From a virus: a DNA stretch of 34,831 nt. Positions 3,159 to 34,653 of the stretch are shown here, one piece after another. The stretch spans positions 1 through 34,831 of IMG/VR virus record IMGVR_UViG_3300042894_001170; one strand, 5' to 3'. The translations under genes and the position numbers were made by a program. The notes under the pieces are model-generated. The model saw only the letters and a program-made list of their open reading frames with translations. It was not told the origin of the DNA and made no database searches. Within the stretch, counting starts at the first letter, position 1, and the number at the start of each line of letters is the position of its first letter.

Positions 3159-3749
3159 ATGATGCCATACGCAAAAAAAAGCAAGACCGTAAATGGTCCC
3201 GATAACAACAAGGCTTACATGCCAGTTCCTAAGGGTTACAAGGGAAACTGGAATGTTCCTAAAGGTACACCTTGGAAAAAGGATTCGCCTTATAACCCAG
3301 CAAATAAAGGCAAAGGTCCAACATCTCGTGGTCCTTCACCCGAATCAGTAGCAAAAGCAAAAGCGTCTGCAACACCCCGTGTTGTATCGCCTGCACCTTC
3401 ACCCAAAGCGGTGGCTGGCCGTAAGGCTGCTGTTGCAAAACGTGCTAATGCTGTTTCGGCTTCTAAAGAAGCAGGAATGATTCGTTCCAGCAAAGAAGCG
3501 GCTGCAACTAAAAAAGCACAGGCTAAGCAGGTAACGTCTCGTGGGCCAAGTCCTCGTAGTGTTGCTGCTGCAAAGAAAAAGGCTTCTGCTGTTACGCCGA
3601 TTGCTTCACCACGTGGCAAGGCTGCTAACCAGGCTGCTCGTCGTGCTGCTATTACTGCTGCACAAAAGAAAGCATCTTCCAGCAAGAGGGCTTCTTCTGC
3701 ACGGACTTCTGCTTCTGTGAAGCGTGGCGTTAAGGGAAAATTAAAGTAA
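3159..3749 (+). CDS. Lysine/alanine-rich basic protein with SRGPSP repeats
   Basis: A very basic, low-complexity protein of 196 residues rich in Lys, Arg, Ala and Ser. A unit of the form (S)RGPSP-x-SVA-x-AK recurs: SRGPSPESVAKAKASAT near residue 48, a degenerate PSPKAVAGRKAAVAK near 80, and SRGPSPRSVAAAKKKAS near 127. The composition resembles histone H1 tails and suggests binding to DNA or RNA. It lies directly after the capsid gene, so it may be a virion component associated with packaged DNA or a head decoration protein; this is inference. Two ATGs are possible (3159 or 3162), and AAGGAG upstream fits the second slightly better. No enzymatic motif is visible. Confidence 0.7.
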   Translation: MMPYAKKSKTVNGPDNNKAYMPVPKGYKGNWNVPKGTPWKKDSPYNPANKGKGPTSRGPSPESVAKAKASATPRVVSPAPSPKAVAGRKAAVAKRANAVSASKEAGMIRSSKEAAATKKAQAKQVTSRGPSPRSVAAAKKKASAVTPIASPRGKAANQAARRAAITAAQKKASSSKRASSARTSASVKRGVKGKLK

Positions 3750-3767: not shown

Positions 3768-3991
3768 TGAGTAAACAACTTGCCCACACCCTATATGGAG
3801 AACCTGTAAGTGGTTCCCGACCTGCCGTTTCGGCAGTCGGGAGCAAACTTGCGCCTGGAAGCGGACCGTATATCGGCCGTAACCGTTGTATCGCCAATAA
3901 CGATACTTGTGAAGGACCCAAAGCCAAACAAACCGACTACTGTATCGGTCATTTGCGTACTATGGCTAAGGAACAGAAGGAGAACGAATGA
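3767..3991 (+). CDS. Small Cys-containing protein between head and tail genes
   Basis: A 74-residue protein of unknown function. The C-terminal half has three cysteines and a histidine in the order RCIANNDTCEG...YCIGHL, which could bind a metal ion as a small zinc finger. No convincing Shine-Dalgarno sequence precedes the ATG at 3767. It may be translated from a near-leaderless message starting at the promoter-like motif upstream. The stop codon overlaps the ATG of the next gene (ATGA at 3988-3991), which supports it as a real gene. Its place between capsid and tail genes suggests a structural or assembly role, but this is inference. Confidence 0.6.
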   Translation: MSKQLAHTLYGEPVSGSRPAVSAVGSKLAPGSGPYIGRNRCIANNDTCEGPKAKQTDYCIGHLRTMAKEQKENE

Positions 3992-13298: not shown

Positions 13299-16200
13299 AT
13301 GGCTAATCCGTATACAGACCAGAGGGCTTTGCTTGCCCGACTGCAACAACAAAACACTGGTGCAGCAACCTCTAGGGTTGCGCCTGGACCTTTACCATCT
13401 AAGGCTGGTATCACTTTAAGCAACACAGCCACGAATATGGCTATTACTAACCCTGCTCTCAGGTCCAAGATTGAGGCTATTGCGGCCAACAAGCCACAGG
13501 GCGCTGGTGGCGTTATTGGTGTGCTTGGCACGGCTCTAAAGCCGTTGTCGGTGTTGGCTCTTCCTGGTCGTGCTGTTGTTGGTAGTGTTCGTGAACTTGC
13601 TGATGTTATGGATGGTAATCCAAACACTACTGCTAGTTTTGGTGATTTCCGCAAAAACATGTCTGACCCTACGTTTGGGTTTGGTAAAGCATTTAAAATC
13701 AATACAGGAAGCATTTGGCTTGACAGAGGTATCGGCCTTGTTGGCGACCTCGCTTTAGACCCTTTAACTTATCTTACTGCTGGTACAGGCAAGTTTGCTG
13801 GTATGGCTGGGAACGTTGATTTGGCTGCTAAGGTTTTGGGTATAACTAACGACGCTGCTTTGGCAGGTCGTGTTGCTAAGTATGGTCGTGGAGCGTCAGG
13901 GTTGACAGACGATATTCTTCAGGGTGCTGGTGCTAACCGTCACGGCTTGTATATGTTTGGAAAGAAACTTGGTAAGGCTGGGGAAATGCAGCAGGGTTTC
14001 CGCATTCCTGGTACTGGTGCGCTGGGTCAAATGACCAGCGCTTCCATGTCTAGACTGCGTGTGTCTGTAATGGGTACAAAAGGTGGAAAGTTTCTACAAA
14101 AGATTACTATGCCTCCTGACATGCTTGAAGCACGAGTGGCTTTGCGTCAAGGAACTTTAGGCTCTACTGACGCTGTTAGAGCAGTTATTGGGGCTATACA
14201 GTCGGAACCTATTCAGCGTATGACCACAGGTACTGTTCGTCAAGCCGAGGCTGCTTCTATGGAGCAGTTCCTTAAAGAACTTGACGTTATGGGTGCTGAA
14301 TCGTATGGTGATGATTTGCATAAGATGATAACAAGCGAAGGTGCCTACAACGCTGGTACAGCAGAGCAACGCATGATTGTTGATGCTATTAAAGAAAAGT
14401 TTGCTTATTTTGAAACCAATGTAGACGCTGCTCGTCAAGTTATTGACGACACTAGTCCTCCTTTTGGTATGAAAGACTACTTCCCAATGATGCAAACTGA
14501 TGAGGCTATTGCATTCAGGTCTAATGGTTCTGCTGCTGCTGAAGAGTTGAATACTATTTACCGTCGTGACCCTCTTGAGGGTGGTAATAACTTTAGAACT
14601 AGAACCCTTGAAGAAGGCGACATTTTCTTTGGTCATCGGCTTACACAGTCGGATATTGACGGTGGTATCGAGGCTTTAAACACTATTGCGACACGTGAAG
14701 GTACTGGTTTTACTGGTAAGTTTTTCGAGACTGATGTTAAGAAAGTTTTAACTAAGTATGTTGATTCTTATGCTCAAGAGATGGGTATTCTTGAGAAGCA
14801 TAAGTTTCTTGTTGAGTCTGGATTTTGGACTCATGCAGATAATGTAACTACAGGCAAGTATGTATTAGATAAAGAGTTGATTGATTCTGTAAAGAAGAAC
14901 ATTAAAACTTTAGATAACGACCTCAAGGCTTTGCATTATTCTGTTCAGAAGTCACATATTGGTTTTTCCCAGGCTTTAGATGATTATGTTAAACAACTTG
15001 AAGAAACATTAACAAACTTCAAGAGTGCTACTGGCGAGTTGGGGCAGATGGAAACACTTGCTGCTTCAAAGCAAGTGTTGGAAGATGCTCTTAGTGGTTC
15101 TTTGACTGCTGGTGCTGATGAACTGCGTTTGTTGGCTGACAATCTTGGAAACATGAAAGCAGGATATGCCAAGTTGATGGGTCTTGAAATTAGCGGCAAG
15201 AACATTGTTGTTGCTGGTACAGAAGAACTTGCTGATGTGCCTATGACTCTTGATGGTTTGATTTCAACTATTGATGATGTTCAGCGTGAGGTTTACGCTC
15301 TTGGTGAACAGATGGACAATCTTGCCATAGATAGGGTTGGCACGGAACTAGAGGCTGCTGCTAAGCAAGCCGAGTTAGAAATGAAGAAAGTGGAAGACAG
15401 AATGCGGGAACTTGTTCCTCGCATTCAGAATGTTACTCAGTTTGCTAACCAACTGGAAAGTGCTTTTGAATCTTTGGCTACTGGCTCTAACTTGGCGGAC
15501 TTTAACGAGCATGTAGTTAAGGTTGTTGCTATGGCCATGCGTGATGGTCAGATTGGTTCTGATACTGTACAGAAGTGGATTAAAGAACAATATGATTTCT
15601 CAGGCAGGTTAGAAACTGCTTTGCGCAACCTAAGCAACGAGCCTGGTAGCCTGTTTGAACGTACCAACCAAATAGTTAATACGATGAAGATTAGTAATAT
15701 TACTAAGATGAATCCATCTGAGTTTTACGATAATCTTACTAAGATGTTTACTGGAGAAATGACTCACGCTCGGGTGCGTGAGATGGCTGTGTATGCGCTT
15801 CTAAATAATGATATAATTTATGGGGATAATGTTCCAGAGTTGCTTAAGCCTTTGCGTGCTAAGTTGGAGGATTTGATTGAGAAATCTGCCCAGGCAGAAG
15901 CGTACGCTGATACAATCAGAAAGGCGGACACTACGGGTAACCGTATGAATGCCGCCAGGGTTTGGGAAAAGCAATGGGAGCCCGCCTATCAGCGTGTGCA
16001 GAATGACCGTGAGGCTCTTGCTGAGTTTGAAGAATTTCGTGATTCTTTTACTGCCGTAATTAACGACCTTGACGATACCTCAATACTTGACAGCACTATT
16101 ACCGATGCGATGCTTGACAGATACTATGATAAGTATCCCTTTTTGCAACAACTTGTTCCTCAAGAGCAAAGCGCAGAAGGTTTTATTACTGACTTGATGA

Positions 16201-19200
16201 ATAGTTCAATGGTAACCAATGGTGAAATGCTTGATGGCATGTTGGTTAGTGATGTTGGTTTGGGTCGTGGTGCTGGTGATTCGGCTGACCGTTTAACCTT
16301 TAGGGATTTGCTTGCCAAAGTTGAGTCGGCTATTGCTCAGAAACAAGCACTGTGGGAAACAGCCGTTTACAGGATTGGCCCTGGTGGGGTCGGTGAGAAA
16401 TTTTATACTGGTAAGGAAATTGTTAGACGTTTTGACCGTGCTAAACAAATTAAAAACATCCTTTCAGACCTGAACAAAAAGCGTGCTCAAGAAGCAGAGT
16501 TTTTATTTAACGAAGCCGACAAGGCTCGTGGTGGAATTTATCGTGACTTGTTTACCCCTGAGAAACAAGCACGATATCAAGAACTAAAACTCATAAATCA
16601 GAAGCGTGCCTTGACGCCTGCGGAAAAGAAAGAGTTTACTCTTTTTGAAAAAGCAGATAACCTTAAACTTGAATCAGAGACACGTGCTGCACAAAAAAGC
16701 GGTGCCGATAGATATCAAGAACTTGATAATGAATTGGCTGAACTTACTGGTGGTGGAAGTCTAGTTAGGCCTGAATGGTTTGATGGCGAAGTTAATGCAA
16801 AACTAGATTTGGCTAACTCTATTTTAGAGTATCAAATGGTTTCTGAAGTTCACACACGTTTTAAGGCTATTGTAACATATACAGAGGCTATGGGGTATGT
16901 TCCTACAGAGGCTATGTTTGCTAAAATAACCGAGGGTGTTTCTAGCAAGTTTATGCCTATTTTGGATAGTAAGATTAGCGAATCAATTCGTGCTCGTATT
17001 ATTATGCAAAGAATTGATGAAGAGATTGCCGTAGCAATCAATGCAGGTAGAAATGTTGATGGCGTTTCTGTTGCTTCTCTTTTTAAACAAAAAATGGCTG
17101 GATTAACTTCTGCTGAAAGAAAAGTTGTAGAGGCTGTTATCGGTACTCGCATTTCTTGGGGTGCAGACCCATGGACTTTGAAGCGTGGTAAGGCTGCATG
17201 GATTAAGGCAAACGTTCCAGAAGGCACTACGGCTTCTAAGGCTGAAACAATGTGGGTTAAGGCTGTGGTTCAACCATGGTATGTAAACGCCGTCCCTGGT
17301 GGCCCTTTATATAAGAATAGAATGTTAGATGCCCTTAATGAGGCATCAAAAGGTAGAAGTCGTGCTGCTAGAAAGCAATTGTCATCTCCTTGGGCTGATG
17401 ATGCAACGCCCGATATAGTCAAGTCTTGGTTTGAAGATATTCTTGGTACAGGCAACTCTGTTATTGGCGGACGTCGTGCTAGAGCGGCTGCGGCTGGTGT
17501 TGATGGGGAAATTGAACAGCGAATTTACGGAATGAAACAAGTTCGTGCAAAGTTTAAAACCATGATTGCCCCCGACATGAACATGGAAGATTTCTTTCTG
17601 CTTGGACCACAACGTTCAAACAAAACACCATCTCTTTATGCTCAGTTCCTGCAAGACTATGCTGATGATTTGGAACGTCGCATTGCTGCTAAGAGGGCAG
17701 TTGATAAACGTATTGTAGACCCTGTTACTGGTCGTCCACAAATTGGTAGTGTTGAAGAACTTATTGCTCAAGAAAAAGGAAAGGTTGAAGGATATCTTTC
17801 TGGTACTATTGATTTGCCTGATGGTATTACTGCCGAGTTCAAGGTTGCTTTAAATAAGAAACGTGCTGCTGTAGAAGCGCAGAATGCTATTGATGCTGCA
17901 CAGAAATCACTTGATGATTCTGTTGCACTCAAGCCCGAACTTGATGCTATTAATAAAACGTCAAAGTCTCGCTGGTTGACCAAGGAAGAAAAAGCCCGTA
18001 AGGTTGAAATTGAAAAGCAAGTTAAGAAGTTGCAAAACGACCTTACAAAGGCTAAAGAGAAGGGCAAGAAAGTAGAAAAACTTACTGCCAAAGAGCAGAG
18101 GTTTTTTGCTGGTCTAGTTGAATCCGTTGACGAGACTGGCACTAGGTCTTTTGAATACACAGTACCCAAAGGTACGCCAGTTGTTCCTAGAGGGCCAAAG
18201 GCTTTGGCTCGTGAGGCTGCTGAAGATGCGCTAGTTAAAACCAGTGAAGAGAGTGCTATTCCAAGAGAAGCGGCTAGGGCGTTAGCGCAATACAGCGAGG
18301 CCATGCAGACACCTATGCATGCTAAGGCGAAGCAGGATGAACAGTTAGTCAGGGTTATGCAGGCTTTGGCTGGATTTGATATGCATAAAGTTCCCAAGTT
18401 TGTATCAGCGTCTGACGGGTCTACTGTTGCTACTTATGCTACTGGTGCTCCTATCACTTTCTCTGATGCTCAATGGCGCTCTTTGTTTCATGGAGTGCCA
18501 CAAGAACGACTTAGTTTTAATCGTGGTAAAGCACAAATAGAGTTAGACCGTCTTCGTGTAGATTTGCGCAACATTGACAGAGAACTTGCAGACATGAACG
18601 TTAGGTATAATGAACTTCAAACTCAGGTGGGGGCATCACGGTTTCCTAGTTTGCGTCGTGCGATACAGGAAATGTCTGAAGAGATTAAACTGGTAGAGTC
18701 ACGGCGTTATTCATTGCTTAATGATATTGATGAGCAAAAAATTGTTATTGAATCTTTGGCTGATGGGATTCAGTCTGTTGCTTTAGGTAAAATAAAGATT
18801 CTTGTTGAAGGACGTTTTGCTCCTGATGGCGAGATGATTCAGGCACCTATTTTTGATGAAAATGGATTAAAGCGTTGGCTTGAACATATGCATCCTACGC
18901 AGTCTCTTATGAGGGACGAAAAGTTTGGTGATTTGGGCTTGTTGGTTGAAAAAACAACTAAAGACCGACTATCAGAGGCCAAGGTTACCACCACTAATTA
19001 TGTTCCAATTATGCAAACCTCAGAAGCCATGCGTTTCATGGGATTGTCTAACGACGCAGAACGAGCATCTGCTCGTGCTGCTAATGTGGCAAAAACATGG
19101 GAGGCAAGTCCAGAGTATGCTCATCTTCAACGCATGTCACAGTTGGAAAGCAACTCATTTATTGTTATGCTCAAGCATCAACAAGACCAGGTTGGTTCCG

Positions 19201-21713
19201 CAGAAAGACTTCTTGAAGAAGTAAAAGCCAGGTTGGGTGCAACACTTGCCGATGCGCAAGATATTAGTCAGGGAATGTCTACGGTTCGCAGAAATATCGC
19301 TGATACAGCAGAGCGGGGTTCTGATGCTTTGGAGAACTTGCGTGGTGCTGGTGTTACTATTCCACAGGAGCAGTTTACTATGCCTGGATATCCAGCGTGG
19401 GATACTTATCCTGATTGGGTTAAGCGTGACATTATTGAAAACAATAAGATAGCACATGCTAATGACCCTAGAATTCCGTTGTTGCCTGAGGAGCCAGTTG
19501 CTGTGCCTGCTGAGCCTTTCCCTTTGAGTGCTTTGTCTACGCCTGATGAAATCAGGGCGTATGCTGCACGCATGGAAGAACAAGCCATGCCTAGTGGTCC
19601 ATTGGTTAAGGACGTTTCTGGTAGCGAGAATGTTGCTTTGGGTAGAGTTGCTGATGAAGCCATGAGTCTTGAAGGGGAATACAACAAGGTTGTACAAGAT
19701 GCTGTTAGGGCTAGGAAAACTGCTAAAGAGTGGCAGGAAGGTGCCCGTGGTGAATCTGTACCTAGGGATGCTGGTTACTCTCCAGAGTCGCAGGCCGCTC
19801 TTCGTGCCATGGAAGGCAAAGCCCCTAGAGAAGGTGGCCGTAAGGCTGCGCTGAATGAGGTTAGGGCAGCATTTAATGAACGCCTAAAGGTTCTTACTAC
19901 TGCTGAAGAAGTTACTCAACGTGTTCAAACCAGGCTTGGAGAGATTGAAGAAAAGATTCTTTCTTACGGCATTGAAGGCGATACGCTGTCGTTTTGGACT
20001 AAATTGGAAGACAATCGTGTCATGGCTGATTTGATTCAGCAAAGACTTGATGATGTTCAAGCGTTGATTGATTCAAGACCTGAAGATGCCATAAAGGTTC
20101 TAAAGGATTCTGTAAAGGGCAGGAAGACCAGCAAGGCTGTTCTTGATGCTGATGTTCAGACTGCTTTGGATTCGTATCGTCAATGGTGGACAGAGAACTA
20201 CGATATTATTCGTGGTGTTACGTCACCAATGGATGACCTAGAAAAGCCAGTGTACGATGCGTGGACTAAAGCAGCGAATGCTGAGATTGAACTTATCGAT
20301 ACACAGTTGATGCGTGGTGAAGAGGTTCGTGCTTTGGCTCGTGCTTCTGCACCTGTATGGCATGAAACCACCTTTACAACCCTTGAAAAGGGTTATGAGA
20401 AGGCGGCACGAGAGTCTGGAATGCTTAAAGGTCAAGCCAAGGTTGACGGTAGAAACTTCCCAAGTTTGTATGGCAATAAAGAAGCGTTGGACCTTATTAC
20501 AAGTTTGGACCGCCTAAAAACTCCTGGTGTTTCTCGTGACTTGGCTAAGTTCATGGGTGAATATACTGGATACTTCCGCTCGTACGCAACTTTAAGCCCT
20601 GGTTATCATGTGCGTAACACGATAAGTAACGTGTTCTCTATATTTACTGCTGGTGCTCAAATTAAGAATATGACTGAAGGTTTCCGTTTGTGGCGTCAAC
20701 TTACACGCACACTAGACCAGGGTGGCACGCTTGATGATTTTGTTTCGGCACTTCCTGCTGAACAACAGATGGCTGGTCGCAGAGCGGCTGAGGTTATGTT
20801 TGGTATGGGTGGAGGCAAAACAGCCGACGCTTTGCGTGGATTCAGTGAAGGCGGAAACATACTTAAAGACAATAGGCTTATTAGGTTCTCTCGTCGTACT
20901 GGCGGAAAAGTTGAAGGCTCAGGACACTTTGTATTAGCATACGATGGTCTAATGCAGGGCTTCACTCCTGAACAAGCATTTAACCGTACACGTCGCTACC
21001 TGATTGACTATCAATCAAGAACTATTCTTGATGAATCTATGCGTGACATTATTCCATTTTGGATGTGGATGAGTCGCAACCTACCTTTGCAGATTGTTAA
21101 CCGCTGGACAAACCCTAAAGTATATGTAATGTACGACAAGATTGTTAGAAACATGTCTGAAGATGATAATGGTATTATGCCGAACTATTTGCAAAAGCGT
21201 AACCCAATTAATCTTGGTGGTGGAAACTTCTTGAACCTTGACCTTCCTACCAGTGGTATTGACCAACAGATTTCAGATATAACGAATCCGAATAAGTGGT
21301 TGTCTTATGTCAACCCAGGTATTCGTACACCTATCGAGTTGATGACCAACAGAAACACATTCACTGGTCAACCTTTTGATAATAGTTATGTTCCTATTAG
21401 TGCTGTTATGAAACCATTCGTTCCTATCCTGAGTGCTATGGGTCAGATTGAGCACAACTCTAAAGGCGAACAGGTTGTTTCTCGCAAGGCTTTGTATGCG
21501 CTAACATCAATGAACCCTGTTTTGTCTAGGGCTGATAGAATGTTACCTACAGATACCGACAGCGTGAAGGGCCGTAACTCTTGGAATGCATTCTTTGGTG
21601 TGCCGTTGACACAGGTAGACGAAGGTATGCAGGACTCAGAGCGGTATCGTAGAATTGCGCAACTAAAAGCATTACAAGCCAAACAACAGAACCTTGGGTT
21701 CGGAGGACAATGA
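13299..21713 (+). CDS. Giant internal virion (ejection) protein, 2804 residues
   Basis: One uninterrupted frame of 8.4 kb, about a quarter of the window. Most of the protein is helical with repeated charged coiled-coil stretches (for example near residues 610-700 and 1520-1590). The last 450 residues are more ordered and hydrophobic: PGYHVRNTISNVFSIFTAG and PFWMWMSRNLPLQIVNRW recall the C-terminal parts of very large podovirus internal proteins and may meet or cross the membrane during DNA ejection. I did not find a clear lysozyme or transglycosylase motif. There is no Shine-Dalgarno sequence, but a promoter-like motif abuts the ATG. The stop overlaps the next start (ATGA). Confidence 0.8.
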   Translation: MANPYTDQRALLARLQQQNTGAATSRVAPGPLPSKAGITLSNTATNMAITNPALRSKIEAIAANKPQGAGGVIGVLGTALKPLSVLALPGRAVVGSVRELADVMDGNPNTTASFGDFRKNMSDPTFGFGKAFKINTGSIWLDRGIGLVGDLALDPLTYLTAGTGKFAGMAGNVDLAAKVLGITNDAALAGRVAKYGRGASGLTDDILQGAGANRHGLYMFGKKLGKAGEMQQGFRIPGTGALGQMTSASMSRLRVSVMGTKGGKFLQKITMPPDMLEARVALRQGTLGSTDAVRAVIGAIQSEPIQRMTTGTVRQAEAASMEQFLKELDVMGAESYGDDLHKMITSEGAYNAGTAEQRMIVDAIKEKFAYFETNVDAARQVIDDTSPPFGMKDYFPMMQTDEAIAFRSNGSAAAEELNTIYRRDPLEGGNNFRTRTLEEGDIFFGHRLTQSDIDGGIEALNTIATREGTGFTGKFFETDVKKVLTKYVDSYAQEMGILEKHKFLVESGFWTHADNVTTGKYVLDKELIDSVKKNIKTLDNDLKALHYSVQKSHIGFSQALDDYVKQLEETLTNFKSATGELGQMETLAASKQVLEDALSGSLTAGADELRLLADNLGNMKAGYAKLMGLEISGKNIVVAGTEELADVPMTLDGLISTIDDVQREVYALGEQMDNLAIDRVGTELEAAAKQAELEMKKVEDRMRELVPRIQNVTQFANQLESAFESLATGSNLADFNEHVVKVVAMAMRDGQIGSDTVQKWIKEQYDFSGRLETALRNLSNEPGSLFERTNQIVNTMKISNITKMNPSEFYDNLTKMFTGEMTHARVREMAVYALLNNDIIYGDNVPELLKPLRAKLEDLIEKSAQAEAYADTIRKADTTGNRMNAARVWEKQWEPAYQRVQNDREALAEFEEFRDSFTAVINDLDDTSILDSTITDAMLDRYYDKYPFLQQLVPQEQSAEGFITDLMNSSMVTNGEMLDGMLVSDVGLGRGAGDSADRLTFRDLLAKVESAIAQKQALWETAVYRIGPGGVGEKFYTGKEIVRRFDRAKQIKNILSDLNKKRAQEAEFLFNEADKARGGIYRDLFTPEKQARYQELKLINQKRALTPAEKKEFTLFEKADNLKLESETRAAQKSGADRYQELDNELAELTGGGSLVRPEWFDGEVNAKLDLANSILEYQMVSEVHTRFKAIVTYTEAMGYVPTEAMFAKITEGVSSKFMPILDSKISESIRARIIMQRIDEEIAVAINAGRNVDGVSVASLFKQKMAGLTSAERKVVEAVIGTRISWGADPWTLKRGKAAWIKANVPEGTTASKAETMWVKAVVQPWYVNAVPGGPLYKNRMLDALNEASKGRSRAARKQLSSPWADDATPDIVKSWFEDILGTGNSVIGGRRARAAAAGVDGEIEQRIYGMKQVRAKFKTMIAPDMNMEDFFLLGPQRSNKTPSLYAQFLQDYADDLERRIAAKRAVDKRIVDPVTGRPQIGSVEELIAQEKGKVEGYLSGTIDLPDGITAEFKVALNKKRAAVEAQNAIDAAQKSLDDSVALKPELDAINKTSKSRWLTKEEKARKVEIEKQVKKLQNDLTKAKEKGKKVEKLTAKEQRFFAGLVESVDETGTRSFEYTVPKGTPVVPRGPKALAREAAEDALVKTSEESAIPREAARALAQYSEAMQTPMHAKAKQDEQLVRVMQALAGFDMHKVPKFVSASDGSTVATYATGAPITFSDAQWRSLFHGVPQERLSFNRGKAQIELDRLRVDLRNIDRELADMNVRYNELQTQVGASRFPSLRRAIQEMSEEIKLVESRRYSLLNDIDEQKIVIESLADGIQSVALGKIKILVEGRFAPDGEMIQAPIFDENGLKRWLEHMHPTQSLMRDEKFGDLGLLVEKTTKDRLSEAKVTTTNYVPIMQTSEAMRFMGLSNDAERASARAANVAKTWEASPEYAHLQRMSQLESNSFIVMLKHQQDQVGSAERLLEEVKARLGATLADAQDISQGMSTVRRNIADTAERGSDALENLRGAGVTIPQEQFTMPGYPAWDTYPDWVKRDIIENNKIAHANDPRIPLLPEEPVAVPAEPFPLSALSTPDEIRAYAARMEEQAMPSGPLVKDVSGSENVALGRVADEAMSLEGEYNKVVQDAVRARKTAKEWQEGARGESVPRDAGYSPESQAALRAMEGKAPREGGRKAALNEVRAAFNERLKVLTTAEEVTQRVQTRLGEIEEKILSYGIEGDTLSFWTKLEDNRVMADLIQQRLDDVQALIDSRPEDAIKVLKDSVKGRKTSKAVLDADVQTALDSYRQWWTENYDIIRGVTSPMDDLEKPVYDAWTKAANAEIELIDTQLMRGEEVRALARASAPVWHETTFTTLEKGYEKAARESGMLKGQAKVDGRNFPSLYGNKEALDLITSLDRLKTPGVSRDLAKFMGEYTGYFRSYATLSPGYHVRNTISNVFSIFTAGAQIKNMTEGFRLWRQLTRTLDQGGTLDDFVSALPAEQQMAGRRAAEVMFGMGGGKTADALRGFSEGGNILKDNRLIRFSRRTGGKVEGSGHFVLAYDGLMQGFTPEQAFNRTRRYLIDYQSRTILDESMRDIIPFWMWMSRNLPLQIVNRWTNPKVYVMYDKIVRNMSEDDNGIMPNYLQKRNPINLGGGNFLNLDLPTSGIDQQISDITNPNKWLSYVNPGIRTPIELMTNRNTFTGQPFDNSYVPISAVMKPFVPILSAMGQIEHNSKGEQVVSRKALYALTSMNPVLSRADRMLPTDTDSVKGRNSWNAFFGVPLTQVDEGMQDSERYRRIAQLKALQAKQQNLGFGGQ

Positions 21714-28389: not shown

Positions 28390-28950
28390 TCAGCGTCTCT
28401 CATAGTCTCTCCTTACCCACGGTGCTGGTACTGTCGGTTTCAGGTAGTCGTAGTTACGGATACAGCCCCAACCGTTGAAGCCGACAGGCTTCTGAAAGAA
28501 CCCATTGGGTGCTAGCCACCCTCTGATTGCGATACGGTTGGCGACTAGGATTTGTTCTAGTCGGGTTGCTTTCCATTGCTTGGATGCGAACTCTTCGCCA
28601 CCGAAACCGTTCCACGTGTTGATGTAGATACCAAGCCCACCTGCGTAGAGTCCTTTGTCTTTCCAATTCCTTCTAGTTTCACACCAAGCAACCCTATCCC
28701 AATACCGATTGTGTGGCACAGGGAGTTCAGCGAGTCTACTAGGCTCATCCCAAGCAAATCTTTGTACCGTGGCTTTACCCCGATGAGGCGCTGATGTTGT
28801 ACTAGTTGTTGTGTACGGAGTAAGTATTTGTTTAGCATTGAATGTTTCCTTTACGGTTGTTGTTGTTGAATTTATGTGGGTAGAAATGGGTGTAGCAGGG
28901 GTATGAACCCCTGCGACACACAGACACGCTGTAATCAGTTTCCTAATCAA
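28390..28950 (-). CDS. Secreted Rpf-like transglycosylase/muralytic protein
   Basis: A secreted protein of 186 residues with a signal-peptide-like N-terminus (basic IRKL, then ITACLCVAGV), a Thr/Ser-rich linker, and a C-terminal domain like resuscitation-promoting factors. WDRVAWCETRRNW carries the expected catalytic Glu. GLYAGGLGIYINTWNGFGG and the ATR-x-EQILVANRIA stretch match the usual GGLQ...TW-x-x-FGG...ATREQQ-x-VAE pattern. Rpf domains cleave actinobacterial peptidoglycan glycan strands. I prefer the TTG at 28950 because GAGGAA sits seven bases upstream; a longer TTG start at 28971 is possible. Unlike the other lytic gene it is on the early-type strand, which is unusual. Confidence 0.8.
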   Translation of the reverse strand: MIRKLITACLCVAGVHTPATPISTHINSTTTTVKETFNAKQILTPYTTTSTTSAPHRGKATVQRFAWDEPSRLAELPVPHNRYWDRVAWCETRRNWKDKGLYAGGLGIYINTWNGFGGEEFASKQWKATRLEQILVANRIAIRGWLAPNGFFQKPVGFNGWGCIRNYDYLKPTVPAPWVRRDYERR

Positions 28951-29161
28951 GTTGTAATTCCTCAATGGCAAACACTAATGACTTCTCAAACTTATGTTTG
29001 GCTTCCATCATTAGGGCGTATTCCTCAGATACACCGTCTTGCCATTTGGTTGTTGCGACCCTGCCAATTTTTTTGGCTACCTGGTCACATCCGATACTTA
29101 GTGATTTGATAACCGAGCGTAGTTCGGGTATCGTGAGGGCTGTTGATGTTGTGTATTCCAT
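28943..29161 (-). CDS. Small helical unknown protein
   Basis: A 72-residue helical protein (IPELRSVIKSLSIGCDQVAKKI, then EYALMMEAKHKFEKSLVFAIEE) with no family recognised. AGGAAT precedes the ATG. Its last bases overlap the start of the Rpf-like gene, so the two are probably translated together. Possibly a regulator or accessory of the same operon; nothing more can be said. Confidence 0.55.
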   Translation of the reverse strand: MEYTTSTALTIPELRSVIKSLSIGCDQVAKKIGRVATTKWQDGVSEEYALMMEAKHKFEKSLVFAIEELQLD

Positions 29162-30243: not shown

Positions 30244-31209
30244 CTAGTAGTAGTCGTAAGTAGAGTCGTAGTTGCCGACACTAAGGGCACGCTGAGTATC
30301 GTCCTGATACTTCTGCGCAATCCTAGCCTCGTCAAACCAGTCTGTTGGTGTGTTGGTTGGTGGTGTCCACAGACACGAGCACAGCATACGGTCATTGTGA
30401 CAGAACCAGCAGGTGTCACACTCGGGGCACAGTTCTGCTTCGTTCACATTGGCTTCGCAAACATACTCGGTGTGACCACAACTTGAACACTTCCACAGTT
30501 CGCCCCACACTTCCTCGCCGTTCTCATCAATGTATGTACAATCCTGTACAAGTTCAGAGTCGTAACCGTTCTTGTCTATTGGTGTCACATTAGTCCACGC
30601 ACTCTGTGACCAGCCACTAGTGTACATACCTGAACCTGAATAGGTGTAGGTGCTACGACCGTACTTGTATGAGTTGTTAGACCACCAAATGTCACCGTCC
30701 CAAGTACCCAGGTTCTCGTTGATGATAGTGTAGTCATTCTGTACAGCAGGGTTAGCAGACAGGAACACAAGTTTAGAACCAGCGGCAAACTTGGCTAGTT
30801 TCTTGCGTGCTTTCTTACTGTTGAGAGTAGACGCACCACCCCAAGCAGGGAACAGTTCCTCAGCAAAGATGCGTGTATCAGATTTACCGTTGCGTTCCTT
30901 GATAGGAAGCATACCGTTATGTCCAACAACACTCAGTTGGTCATTACCTAGACGGAATGGGTGACAGTTATCAACTGTTGTACCACCGTGGGTAGTGATG
31001 CGTGAATGGAACAGGGCTACACCCTGATACTTTTCTCGTTGCTCAAAGAACTCAGCGATGATTTTATCAGCGTTGAGTCCACTGTTGGTAATGATACGAG
31101 TACGGTCGTGAATGGCGTAGCCGAAACCGTCAGGGTTATTAGCGGCGCTATTTTGTAGGTGCTCGTAGGTTGGTGTTGCGTATTCCTGTATGAAAGTCAA
31201 GAGACACAT
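30244..31209 (-). CDS. Class II glutamine amidotransferase with zinc ribbon
   Basis: A 321-residue protein whose first 180 residues form a class II (Ntn-type) glutamine amidotransferase, which releases ammonia from glutamine. Cys2 is exposed as nucleophile after Met removal. NPDGFG (25-30), LFHSRITTHG (67-75), NCHPF (81-85) and GHNG (96-99) are the family's conserved loops. The C-terminal part carries a Cys-rich module (Cys241, 244, 251, 261, 264, 267, 270, 277) likely binding zinc. The adjacent amidoligase three bases upstream is the natural user of the ammonia or a partner in modifying a peptide or protein. AAGGAG for this gene lies within the end of the amidoligase gene. Confidence 0.85.
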   Translation of the reverse strand: MCLLTFIQEYATPTYEHLQNSAANNPDGFGYAIHDRTRIITNSGLNADKIIAEFFEQREKYQGVALFHSRITTHGGTTVDNCHPFRLGNDQLSVVGHNGMLPIKERNGKSDTRIFAEELFPAWGGASTLNSKKARKKLAKFAAGSKLVFLSANPAVQNDYTIINENLGTWDGDIWWSNNSYKYGRSTYTYSGSGMYTSGWSQSAWTNVTPIDKNGYDSELVQDCTYIDENGEEVWGELWKCSSCGHTEYVCEANVNEAELCPECDTCWFCHNDRMLCSCLWTPPTNTPTDWFDEARIAQKYQDDTQRALSVGNYDSTYDYY

Positions 31210-31212
31210 TGC

Positions 31213-32472
31213 TCAGACTCCTTTCGTTGTTGCGTACTCGTCAAAGGCTAGGTATCCGTTGTCTCGTGTGAACTCACGGAACTTGTCCCAGTCGGTACTT
31301 GCTTTTATGTTTATGTTGTTGCGTGTCGCCACAGAGTAGTCAGCGACAGCGTGTACGGCTTCCAGCCGTGCTTTGAGTGTGCTAGGTCGTAGTGTGCCCT
31401 TGAAGAATCGTAACTCAATAGTGTTACGGTTCTGTAAGTTGAGAGCAACATAACGGTCTGCGTTGTAATGTACATAGTCACGACCACGCTTGTTAGCACC
31501 CTTGGCATAGTTCAGTAGACGAGTTGTTTCTGACTGGTCCCACTTGGCGTAACTGTTGTTGGTGCGACCAGCAATACGACCCCATTGTTCTGAGTTCTGA
31601 TAGAACAAAGACATAAAGCGCCACAGTGAACTGGCACGGTCAGCAAAGAAACCAGCGTTGATGTGAACATGTAATCCACAACTGGTTGTCTGCGCAGAAC
31701 GCATACCAATCTTGGCAAGTTCACGCAGGTTCTCATAGTCAAACTGTGACTCTAAATACTTGCGTGTCATCGGATGCGACACCATCTCAAAACCGTCACT
31801 AAGTGAACCGTCGTGTTTGAGGTAGCAAGTGTCACCGTACAGTTGTTGTGCGAGTTCAGCACCCTCTTCAACATCGCAGTCTATGGCTTCCATCTCTAAC
31901 TCAAAACCAGTCACAGATACACGGCGTGGCTCGCTAGATAAAGTGAGCGCACGACCAGCAGGTGACACAGTAAAGAACTGAACCTCAGGACGATACGAAT
32001 AGTCGTGGATAAGTCGGCTACGACTTTCACGGTCGTGTTCACAGTCGGCACAGTCGTCGTAACGATAGTACAAGTCGTGAGTATCACACCACGAATACTC
32101 GTGGTAACAATCACTACAAACAGAACGGTCACCGTTGATGAGTTCTAAGTCGTCGTTCACCGTGAAGTCGGCACAGTCTTCACAGTATGAAAACTCCATC
32201 TCATACAACTCGGCAATCCAAACGGAAGTGCCGTTCTGTACGGCACGGTTTTCTGTTTCAGAGTCAGCCCCTGCTACTGAGTTGGTGATACGCACATCGT
32301 AAGATGTGTTGGTGCGTGGAATGAGCATGAGGTCATCACGCTCAAAGTAGTCGCCACTGTAATGGCATTGGTATGTTGTGGTTGGTAGTTCGGTCATTAC
32401 TCCGAGCCTTTCTTGTAAAGCCTGAACTTCGTCAGGTGATAATGGGGGAACACCAAAGATTGATGTAGTCAT
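31213..32472 (-). CDS. Amidoligase (COOH-NH2 ligase) with N-terminal zinc fingers
   Basis: A 419-residue protein. From about residue 185 it matches the glutamine-synthetase-like amidoligase family: GFELEMEAID (189-198), KHDGSL (219-224), CGLHVHINAGFF (265-276) and IELRFFKGTLRP (352-363) contain the metal- and ATP-binding residues. The N-terminal 150 residues contain Cys-x2-Cys pairs (YCEDC, CSDC, DCADC) that suggest two or more zinc-binding knuckles and may recognise the substrate. Such enzymes form amide bonds on peptides, proteins or wall precursors; the substrate here is unknown. AGGAGG precedes the ATG. An 18-bp dyad lies 41 bases upstream. Confidence 0.85.
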   Translation of the reverse strand: MTTSIFGVPPLSPDEVQALQERLGVMTELPTTTYQCHYSGDYFERDDLMLIPRTNTSYDVRITNSVAGADSETENRAVQNGTSVWIAELYEMEFSYCEDCADFTVNDDLELINGDRSVCSDCYHEYSWCDTHDLYYRYDDCADCEHDRESRSRLIHDYSYRPEVQFFTVSPAGRALTLSSEPRRVSVTGFELEMEAIDCDVEEGAELAQQLYGDTCYLKHDGSLSDGFEMVSHPMTRKYLESQFDYENLRELAKIGMRSAQTTSCGLHVHINAGFFADRASSLWRFMSLFYQNSEQWGRIAGRTNNSYAKWDQSETTRLLNYAKGANKRGRDYVHYNADRYVALNLQNRNTIELRFFKGTLRPSTLKARLEAVHAVADYSVATRNNINIKASTDWDKFREFTRDNGYLAFDEYATTKGV

Positions 32473-32512: not shown

Positions 32513-32530
32513 GTGATAGAGGTCTATCAC
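32513..32530. promoter_or_regulatory. 18-bp dyad, copy 1 (GTGATAGA-GG-TCTATCAC)
   Basis: A perfect inverted repeat with eight-base arms around a GG centre, between the 32560-32811 gene and the amidoligase gene. The same sequence occurs at 34636, and with one changed end base at 33558 and 34144. The size and symmetry suit a dimeric repressor or activator. As RNA it could also fold into a seven-pair hairpin with a four-base loop. Confidence 0.6.
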
Positions 32531-33503: not shown

Positions 33504-33555
33504 ACAACTCATCAGCACGGTTATGAACCGTGTACGCCTTACGGCGTTTCGTTGT
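33504..33555 (-). ncRNA. Type II hammerhead ribozyme, element 1
   Basis: On the - strand: stem II 5' strand ACAAC, GAAA core, stem III ACGCC-GTAA-GGCGT, cleavage-site A at 33533, stem I CACGGTT-CAT-AACCGTG, CUGAUGA (33515-33509), stem II 3' strand GTTGT. All invariant core nucleotides of the hammerhead are present, with stem II open (type II). Predicted cleavage lies between 33533 and 33532 and would leave stem I as a 5' hairpin on the mRNA for the 33215-33481 gene. Stem sequences differ from elements 2 and 3 but pair equally well. Confidence 0.85.
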
Positions 33556-33557
33556 TT

Positions 33558-33575
33558 GTGATAGAGGTCTATCAG
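33558..33575. promoter_or_regulatory. 18-bp dyad, copy 2 (one end base changed)
   Basis: GTGATAGA-GG-TCTATCA followed by G rather than C, so 14 of the 16 arm bases still pair. It lies between the stop codon of the 33579-33731 gene and hammerhead element 1, two bases from the ribozyme. Confidence 0.55.
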
Positions 33576-33578
33576 CGA

Positions 33579-33731
33579 TTAGCCGACTTGCGCGATGATG
33601 TCGGCTTCGTTGATTGTGTCAAACGAGATGACACCCTCTTCTGACTCAACAAGTGGCATCGTTGCGAGCAGGATTTTCTCCCAGAGCGCAACATACTCTT
33701 CGTTGATTTGCTTGATTGTTGATGGTGACAC
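33579..33731 (-). CDS. 50-residue unknown protein (GTG start)
   Basis: A short gene of 50 residues. The GTG at 33731 is preferred over an in-frame GTG at 33773 because AAGGAGC lies seven bases upstream of it, while the 33773 start falls inside the CUGAUGA core of hammerhead element 2. The protein is mostly helical (SPSTIKQINEEYVALWEKIL) with an acidic end (ESEEGVISFDTINEADII). No family recognised. It is flanked by ribozymes on both sides. Confidence 0.55.
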   Translation of the reverse strand: MSPSTIKQINEEYVALWEKILLATMPLVESEEGVISFDTINEADIIAQVG

Positions 33732-33755
33732 GATAGTGCTCCTTGTTTTTTTATT

Positions 33756-33817
33756 CTGATAACTCATCAGCACGGAAACTTATCCGTGTACGCCCAAAGG
33801 GCGTTTCGTTATGTCAG
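33756..33817 (-). ncRNA. Type II hammerhead ribozyme, element 2
   Basis: On the - strand: stem II 5' strand CTGA-(CA)-TAAC, GAAA core, stem III ACGCCC-TTT-GGGCGT, cleavage-site A at 33789, stem I CACGGA-TAAGTT-TCCGTG, CUGAUGA (33770-33764), stem II 3' strand GTTA-TCAG. Stem II contains T-A where elements 1 and 3 have C-G (TAAC/GTTA against CAAC/GTTG), a compensatory change. Stem III has one extra pair and stem I has altered pairs. The outer stem II strand overlaps the stop codon of the upstream gene. Cleavage is predicted between 33789 and 33788. Confidence 0.85.
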
Positions 33818-34071
33818 ATGTTTGCCATTACGAATGGCTTGATTGCTTCCAACTGTTCACACTTTTTACGGAAAGTTTCGTACGCATACTTCATACGCAT
33901 GAAACCAAACTCGTAATGATGAACCAAACCCTTGATTTCCTCAAGGACATAATCTGCTTCTGCTTCTGCGCCTTGCCATTGCCATAACTTGTACTCGTAA
34001 GTAAGACGCTTGATTTCTGTAACCTTAGACATAAAGACCTTGTCGTTATGTAAAGCGATTGATGTTGCCAT
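33814..34071 (-). CDS. Small helical unknown protein
   Basis: An 85-residue protein, almost entirely helical and charged (SKVTEIKRLTYEYKLWQWQG, EADYVLEEIKGLVHHYEFG), probably a coiled coil or helical hairpin. No family recognised. The ribosome-binding site is weak (AGAAAGAAA). Hammerhead element 3 lies 23 bases upstream of the ATG, and the stop codon is part of the outer stem II of element 2. Ribozyme folding at the 3' end and translation termination therefore compete for the same bases. Confidence 0.6.
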   Translation of the reverse strand: MATSIALHNDKVFMSKVTEIKRLTYEYKLWQWQGAEAEADYVLEEIKGLVHHYEFGFMRMKYAYETFRKKCEQLEAIKPFVMANI

Positions 34072-34093
34072 TGTTATTTCTTTCTGTTATCTA

Positions 34094-34145
34094 ACAACTC
34101 GTCAGCACAGGTCTAACCTGTGGACGCCTCACGGCGTTTCGTTGT
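34094..34145 (-). ncRNA. Type II hammerhead ribozyme, element 3
   Basis: On the - strand: stem II 5' strand ACAAC, GAAA core, stem III ACGCC-GTGA-GGCGT, cleavage-site C at 34123 (the classical GUC triplet), stem I CACAGGT-TAG-ACCTGTG, CUGACGA (34105-34099), stem II 3' strand GTTGT. Stem II may extend after a two-base bulge as TCTA/TAGA, using bases of the adjoining dyad. Stem I has A-T where element 1 has G-C and still pairs fully. Cleavage between 34123 and 34122 would release the mRNA of the 33814-34071 gene. Confidence 0.85.
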
Positions 34146-34161
34146 GATAGAGGTCTATCAG
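34144..34161. promoter_or_regulatory. 18-bp dyad, copy 3 (one end base changed)
   Basis: GTGATAGA-GG-TCTATCA followed by G. It shares its first two bases with hammerhead element 3 and overlaps the stop codon of the 34158-34619 gene. In RNA, the CTCTATC strand could pair either within the dyad or with the outer stem II of the ribozyme. Confidence 0.55.
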
Positions 34162-34635: not shown

Positions 34636-34653
34636 GTGATAGAGGTCTATCAC
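34636..34653. promoter_or_regulatory. 18-bp dyad, copy 4 (perfect)
   Basis: GTGATAGA-GG-TCTATCAC just upstream of the ribosome-binding region of the 34158-34619 gene. A half site (GTGATAG) follows at 34679-34685. Position immediately ahead of the first gene of the cluster is typical of an operator or processing site. No ribozyme core is found beside this copy. Confidence 0.6.

Follow-up and report, generated by a model that had tools for sequence, protein, structure and literature searches.

The window analysed here, 34,831 bases long, comprises an entire IMG/VR virus record, and it raises the question of what is encoded in three short gaps between consecutive small genes on its minus strand, and what these gaps would do to a message running through them. 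A preliminary description had placed a type II hammerhead ribozyme in each gap and had taken the resulting alternation of genes and ribozymes to be new. Type II hammerheads are common in bacteria, and several flank single genes in prophages (Perreault et al. 2011, PMC3088659). Tandem sets cleave during in vitro transcription, one of them also in E. coli, and an mRNA-processing role has been proposed for clustered phage hammerheads (PMC3088659). Because both the layout and the processing idea were reported in that work, neither is new; what the window adds is a clear new example of a compact variant, and an account of such arrays in phages published after 2011 could exist.

Predicted type II hammerheads in three intergenic gaps

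The order on the minus strand is a gene at 34619-34158, element A, a gene at 34071-33814, element B, a gene at 33731-33579, element C and a gene at 33481-33215. The first of these genes encodes a protein of 153 amino acids without a family match, and has a palindrome and no ribozyme at its 5' end. The gene between A and B encodes 85 amino acids, the gene between B and C encodes 50 and begins with GTG after AAGGAG, and the gene downstream of C encodes 88. As had been described, each element lies directly 5' of a ribosome-binding site, in the space between a stop codon and the ribosome-binding site of the next gene. B starts directly after the stop codon of the gene upstream of it, and the start codons lie 23-28 nt 3' of the fourth stem II pair.

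Element A occupies minus-strand positions 34145-34094 and reads, 5' to 3' with the core in capitals, acaac-GAA-ACGCC(gtga)GGCGU-C^-CACAGGU(uag)ACCUGUG-CUGACGA-guugu. Its stem II is formed by 34145-34141 and 34098-34094, GAA lies at 34140-34138, and CUGACGA ends at 34099. Element B (33812-33759, minus strand), auaac-GAA-ACGCCC(uuu)GGGCGU-A^-CACGGA(uaaguu)UCCGUG-CUGAUGA-guuau, pairs 33812-33808 with 33763-33759 in stem II and has its CUGAUGA ending at 33764. Element C (33555-33504, minus strand), acaac-GAA-ACGCC(guaa)GGCGU-A^-CACGGUU(cau)AACCGUG-CUGAUGA-guugu, pairs 33555-33551 with 33508-33504, and its CUGAUGA ends at 33509. All three were recovered at the sites originally given for them when the sequence was read base by base, searched by pattern and searched with a structural finder. 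The MFE fold of each element alone is the exact hammerhead three-way junction; A and C are also matched by a covariance model, and B by a model, R2, from whose training it had been held out.

The hammerhead core (C3U4G5A6N7G8A9, G12A13A14, A15.1-U16.1 and H17) is present in A, B and C, and the topology is that of type II, with stems I and III closed and stem II open. H17 is a C at 34123 in A, an A at 33789 in B and an A at 33533 in C, in agreement with the cut positions predicted earlier (34123/34122, 33789/33788 and 33533/33532). In A, B and C, respectively, stem III has 5, 6 and 5 bp and stem I has 7, 6 and 7 bp, while stem II, previously counted as 4 bp, has 5 bp in all three when read from the sequence. 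The stems covary around an intact core, their sequences changing with pairing kept as the preliminary description had claimed. The structural finder produced 5 chance matches in 300 Markov-shuffled windows, or 0.017 per window, against the 3 observed, all of which fall in intergenic gaps and in the sense orientation. Judged by sequence and fold, A, B and C are genuine type II hammerhead ribozymes, for which self-cleavage is predicted.

The compact form and the Rfam model

A match to the Rfam type II covariance model (RF02276, Hammerhead_II; gathering threshold 37 bits) had been proposed as a check, and none was obtained for A, B or C: Rfam cmscan at gathering thresholds, cmscan of the region at E-values up to 10 and a dedicated RF02276 search all returned no hammerhead. 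Run as a positive control on 11 related loci, the same Rfam library gave 8 Hammerhead_II matches, compared with 52 elements located by the structural finder. The control shows that the model detects pseudoknotted relatives and misses the short-loop form, and Rfam was therefore rejected as arbiter; its silence is a limit of the model, apparently with a structural cause. To read the lack of a covariance hit above threshold as disproof, as had been suggested, would be to discard a true element. A covariance model of the compact form finds A, B and C at 49-63 bits, the held-out match of R2 to B having 49.4 bits (E = 1.6e-15). The three elements are filed here as type II hammerheads, not as members of the RF02276 model. 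As a standard database model misses the compact form, present hammerhead counts are too low.

The compact form is defined by closed stems I and III, an open 5-bp stem II, a loop I of 3-6 nt, a U at position 1.7 and the lack of a Watson-Crick pseudoknot between loop I and the tail. Among 133 distinct elements, loop I has at least 6 nt in 26, and a pseudoknot between loop I and the tail is possible in 20 of these (5.4 expected on shuffling); in the 107 with a loop I of at most 5 nt, it is possible in 3 (0.8 expected). A and C belong to the short-loop class, and B, with a 6-nt loop, is likewise without an evident pseudoknot. No Watson-Crick pseudoknot of at least 4 bp between loop I and the tail could be read in A, B or C; this candidate contact was set aside, and it is not a feature of the short-loop class. 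The U at 1.7 is invariant in 31 diverse short-loop elements, and possibly touches the stem II tail through a non-Watson-Crick interaction. With the published type II hammerheads (PMC3088659; RF02276) the elements of the window share the permutation, the core, the open stem II, the association with phage genes and the occurrence in clusters that flank single genes. They differ from them in their short loop I, in lacking the pseudoknot that most published members have, in scoring below the Rfam threshold, and in sitting in tight arrays of stop codon, ribozyme and ribosome-binding site.

Pairing, gene context and distribution

The pattern used to scan viral sequences constrained the core and parts of stems III and I; it left free the interior of stem I and, apart from its first base, all of stem II. 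Stem II nevertheless has at least 3 bp in 83 of 83 distinct matches, with many compensatory sequences, and at least 4 bp in 73 of them, against 22.1 expected with shuffled partners (maximum 31). At least three further stem I pairs are present in 82 of the 83, against 9% in shuffles. Pairing in stems that the pattern left free is direct evidence of selection on the fold. A separate covariation analysis, made on elements that had been chosen by pairing, agrees; the finder and the pattern bias the sample toward conserved stems, except where stem II and stem I were left free.

These results bear on the idea that the elements are mere stable hairpins at mRNA ends, or ribozyme remnants, that no longer cut. 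Stems I and III are indeed stable, and stem III is capped by a GNRA or UNCG tetraloop in 89 of the 116 four-base loops, a cap that would make the hairpin ending the upstream message very stable. A plain hairpin, however, has no need of the CUGANGA and GAA that are intact in all three elements of the window, and although the finder required the core, its matches are far above chance and stem II covaries where it was unselected. We consider it highly improbable that hairpins are all that is left, and treat the elements as predicted ribozymes in what follows.

Their position relative to genes is also regular. A start codon lies at most 60 nt downstream on the same strand in 124 of the 133 elements (median 27.5 nt among those with a start); the corresponding shares are 33% for the antisense side and 53% for randomly chosen positions. 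At least two elements occur together in 25 loci, with as many as nine within 4 kb of one phage and seven in others. On the upstream side, the reading frame ends a median of 6 nt before GAAA in the 133 elements, and a terminating ribosome would thus cover stem II. This spacing would suit regulated switches, in which slow or conditional cutting (responding to upstream translation, metabolites or Mg2+) tunes the ratio of neighbouring proteins. Variants that might serve such tuning recur in relatives: the 10.1-11.1 pair, as a rule invariant, is a U-U or U-C mismatch in hammerheads of several related phages (L103:705-755, L104:3204-3254, L105:3059-3109, L107:3196-3244, L108:1657-1706, L111:2905-2955, L100:1736-1786 and L136:2110-2160), and this pyrimidine mismatch may weaken activity. 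In the window, however, the core is canonical and no conserved extra domain able to sense a ligand is present, and we regard regulated switching as unlikely.

The pattern of the compact form matched 93 stretches in viral contigs against 3 in 84,980 prokaryote genomes, and the compact form is therefore mainly a phage feature. In blastn searches against cultured phages, the right end of the window and other arrays gave nothing or weak gene-level matches. With model R2, Pseudanabaena phage Pan4 yielded no element, and neither Microbacterium phage Nucci nor Synechococcus phage S-CBS3 a convincing one; the searches thus gave no cultured phage-host pair. The nearest annotated relative of the capsid and portal genes of the window, L172 (MW202803.1), has a hammerhead at 1949-2004. 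The deposited start of UOF82150.1 (1985) falls inside the stem I loop of this element and is therefore probably wrong.

A second structured RNA at the same sites in relatives

Two relatives, L098 and L099, were found through their GATase-like protein, which has 94-99% identity to that of the window, and they show 91-94% nucleotide identity to the window just downstream of the ribozyme genes. No hammerhead was found in either. A structured RNA that we call motif K precedes the L098 and L099 orthologs of the genes downstream of A, B and C, all three positions being represented between the two viruses. The ortholog of the gene between A and B comes after motif K in L099, that of the gene between B and C does so in both viruses, and that of the gene downstream of C does so in L098; orthologs of this last gene in L107 and L108 come after a variant hammerhead. 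L099 is without the gene after C, and motif K there precedes the next conserved gene. The copies lie at 3500-3565, 3815-3882 and 4077-4145 in L099 and at 2415-2480, 2695-2762 and 2953-3021 in L098. Motif K is also present in L102, L103, L104, L105, L107, L108, L136 and L150, with four copies in L110 and two each in L111 and L147.

Motif K spans about 66 nt and is composed of a strand S1, a hairpin of about 10 bp, a conserved strand of the ACUCUC type, the strand S1' and a 3' pseudoknot strand. In 18 aligned copies, which are mutually related and whose bounds were set by eye, the pairing holds in 95.5% of cells, against 80.7% when shuffled and 30-49% when slid. Both partners vary in nine of the pairs, and the covariation score of the copies was reached by 0 of 500 shuffles. 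The 3' pseudoknot strand has a mean of 6.5 nt paired, compared with 4.1 for shuffled tails and 5.0 (maximum 6.6) for swapped tails. A lower extension of the hairpin (GGGU/ACUC) was suggested by a fold but showed no covariation, and is not claimed. A search of Rfam gave no family match, on which ground a known Rfam family was rejected as the identity of motif K, and a permuted hammerhead was rejected on the sequence, which is without a CUGANGA or GAAA core. Two pattern scans and the K model, whose E-values are rough, did not find the motif beyond this phage group.

Protein clustering across all elements revealed seven downstream gene families that have a hammerhead in some phages and motif K in others, and the start codon lies mostly 15-28 nt downstream of either RNA. 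Both are found in one genome in L103, L104, L105, L107, L108, L111, L136 and L150. Two unrelated RNAs are swapped at one site with genes and spacing kept, and they therefore probably have the same function: should the hammerhead cut, motif K probably cuts or is cut as well. That motif K is a new structural class of self-cleaving ribozyme, replacing hammerheads in the same job, is a serious candidate explanation, though one that we stop just short of favouring; it could instead be a site cut by a protein, or a stabiliser. The argument for looking near known ribozymes for new classes is the same as in the literature (PMC10085705). Like twister sister, pistol, hatchet and the type-SGC hammerheads (PMC10085705), motif K was found near known ribozymes, and it is compact, pseudoknotted and conserved. 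Unlike those classes, it occupies the same orthologous sites as hammerheads, and does so with neither the CUGANGA core nor an Rfam match. If motif K does self-cleave, a ribozyme class would be added, and selection would be shown to act on the cut and not on a particular RNA; if it is such a class, these phages would amount to a natural experiment, with unrelated ribozymes exchanged at a single site.

Putative role in processing an early message

What would the hammerheads of the window do? We consider it likely that they cut one early transcript into single-gene mRNAs with hairpin-bounded ends. The leftward early genes and the elements would be co-transcribed, and each element would cut after H17. 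Such a cut would give the message of the upstream gene a 3' end made up of the stem III hairpin and a 2',3'-cyclic phosphate. The message of the downstream gene would carry a 5'-hydroxyl followed by the stem I hairpin, its 5' end lying some 50-57 nt ahead of the start codon. 5'-hydroxyl ends and terminal hairpins hinder 5'-end-dependent decay. The purpose would be to make the stability and translation of each small gene independent, in the manner of natural counterparts of the RiboJ insulator. Self-cutting of a polycistronic message fits both the anatomy of the locus and the broader comparative picture. The analysis establishes the sequence, the fold, the sense-oriented position between genes, covariation and recurrence, and published cleavage is that of other members; for this virus, we infer cleavage, co-transcription and an effect on expression. 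The role is supported by the relatives, in which orthologous sites hold a hammerhead or another structured RNA. Against assumed cutting counts the finding by others that four of 18 consensus hammerheads tested were inactive.

In general, a gene flanked by two ribozymes would have a 5'-hydroxyl and a 2',3'-cyclic phosphate after the hammerhead reaction, and these ends are ligation substrates. The main outcome of cutting might then be circularisation, giving circular, exonuclease-proof mRNAs via RtcB-type ligases or the reverse reaction of the ribozyme. MW202803, the nearest database relative, has an annotated RNA ligase, but a homolog of it is absent from the window and the other loci examined, and no ligase domain was found in the window proteins scanned. 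Circular or spliced products were moreover sought by Perreault et al., who found none (PMC3088659). Circularisation as the main outcome is in our view decidedly unlikely, and we retain the cutting of one message into linear single-gene mRNAs.

Whether the genes share one message is also touched by a 16-bp palindrome, TGATAGAGGTCTATCA, which lies at 34145-34160, between the stop codon and A, and at 33559-33574, before C, with none before B. It looks like a phage-specific operator or hairpin. The copies before A and C could delimit transcripts under separate regulation, in which case the genes may not share one message. A search for sigma-70 promoters before each gene gave no excess over shuffles. 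Four exact copies of TGATAGAGGTCTATCA are present in the window (32514-32529, 33559-33574, 34145-34160 and 34637-34652), all in gaps of the early region, and relatives have other palindromes at comparable sites, for example CTCGGACTCGTGTCCGAG and CTTTACACCTGTAAAG.

Cutting of a polycistronic message between genes is familiar from the early transcript of phage T7, which RNase III divides into smaller mRNAs. T7 punctuation differs from the proposed one in that a host protein acts at long hairpins, with no RNA catalysis. The hammerhead of haloviruses HF1/HF2 (HHphage) resembles those of the window in lying directly 5' of a viral early gene, and the 5' end of the HF1/HF2 early transcript maps within 3 nt of its cut site (cited in PMC3088659); unlike them, it is a single variant-core element at the transcript start and not an array between genes. 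In engineered circuits, a hammerhead plus hairpin before the ribosome-binding site raises expression (RiboJ, PMC6206723). RiboJ (the sTRSV hammerhead with a hairpin) is alike in leaving a hairpin 5' of the ribosome-binding site after self-cutting, a comparison of working principle only, whereas it is synthetic, derives from a type III satellite-RNA hammerhead and is placed after a promoter, not between genes. The idea of mRNA punctuation is directly testable on arrays in which up to nine elements are each lodged between a stop codon and the ribosome-binding site that follows.

Other features of the window

Among the structural genes, positions 13299-21713 encode a protein of 2804 amino acids without a PHROG or Pfam match. 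At 30244-32472, a glutamine-amidotransferase-like protein adjoins an amidoligase, an arrangement common to the relatives and shared distantly with mycobacteriophages. Positions 28390-28971 encode a transglycosylase-like domain (PF06737); domains of this kind typify the resuscitation-promoting factors of actinobacteria, which hints at an actinobacterial host.
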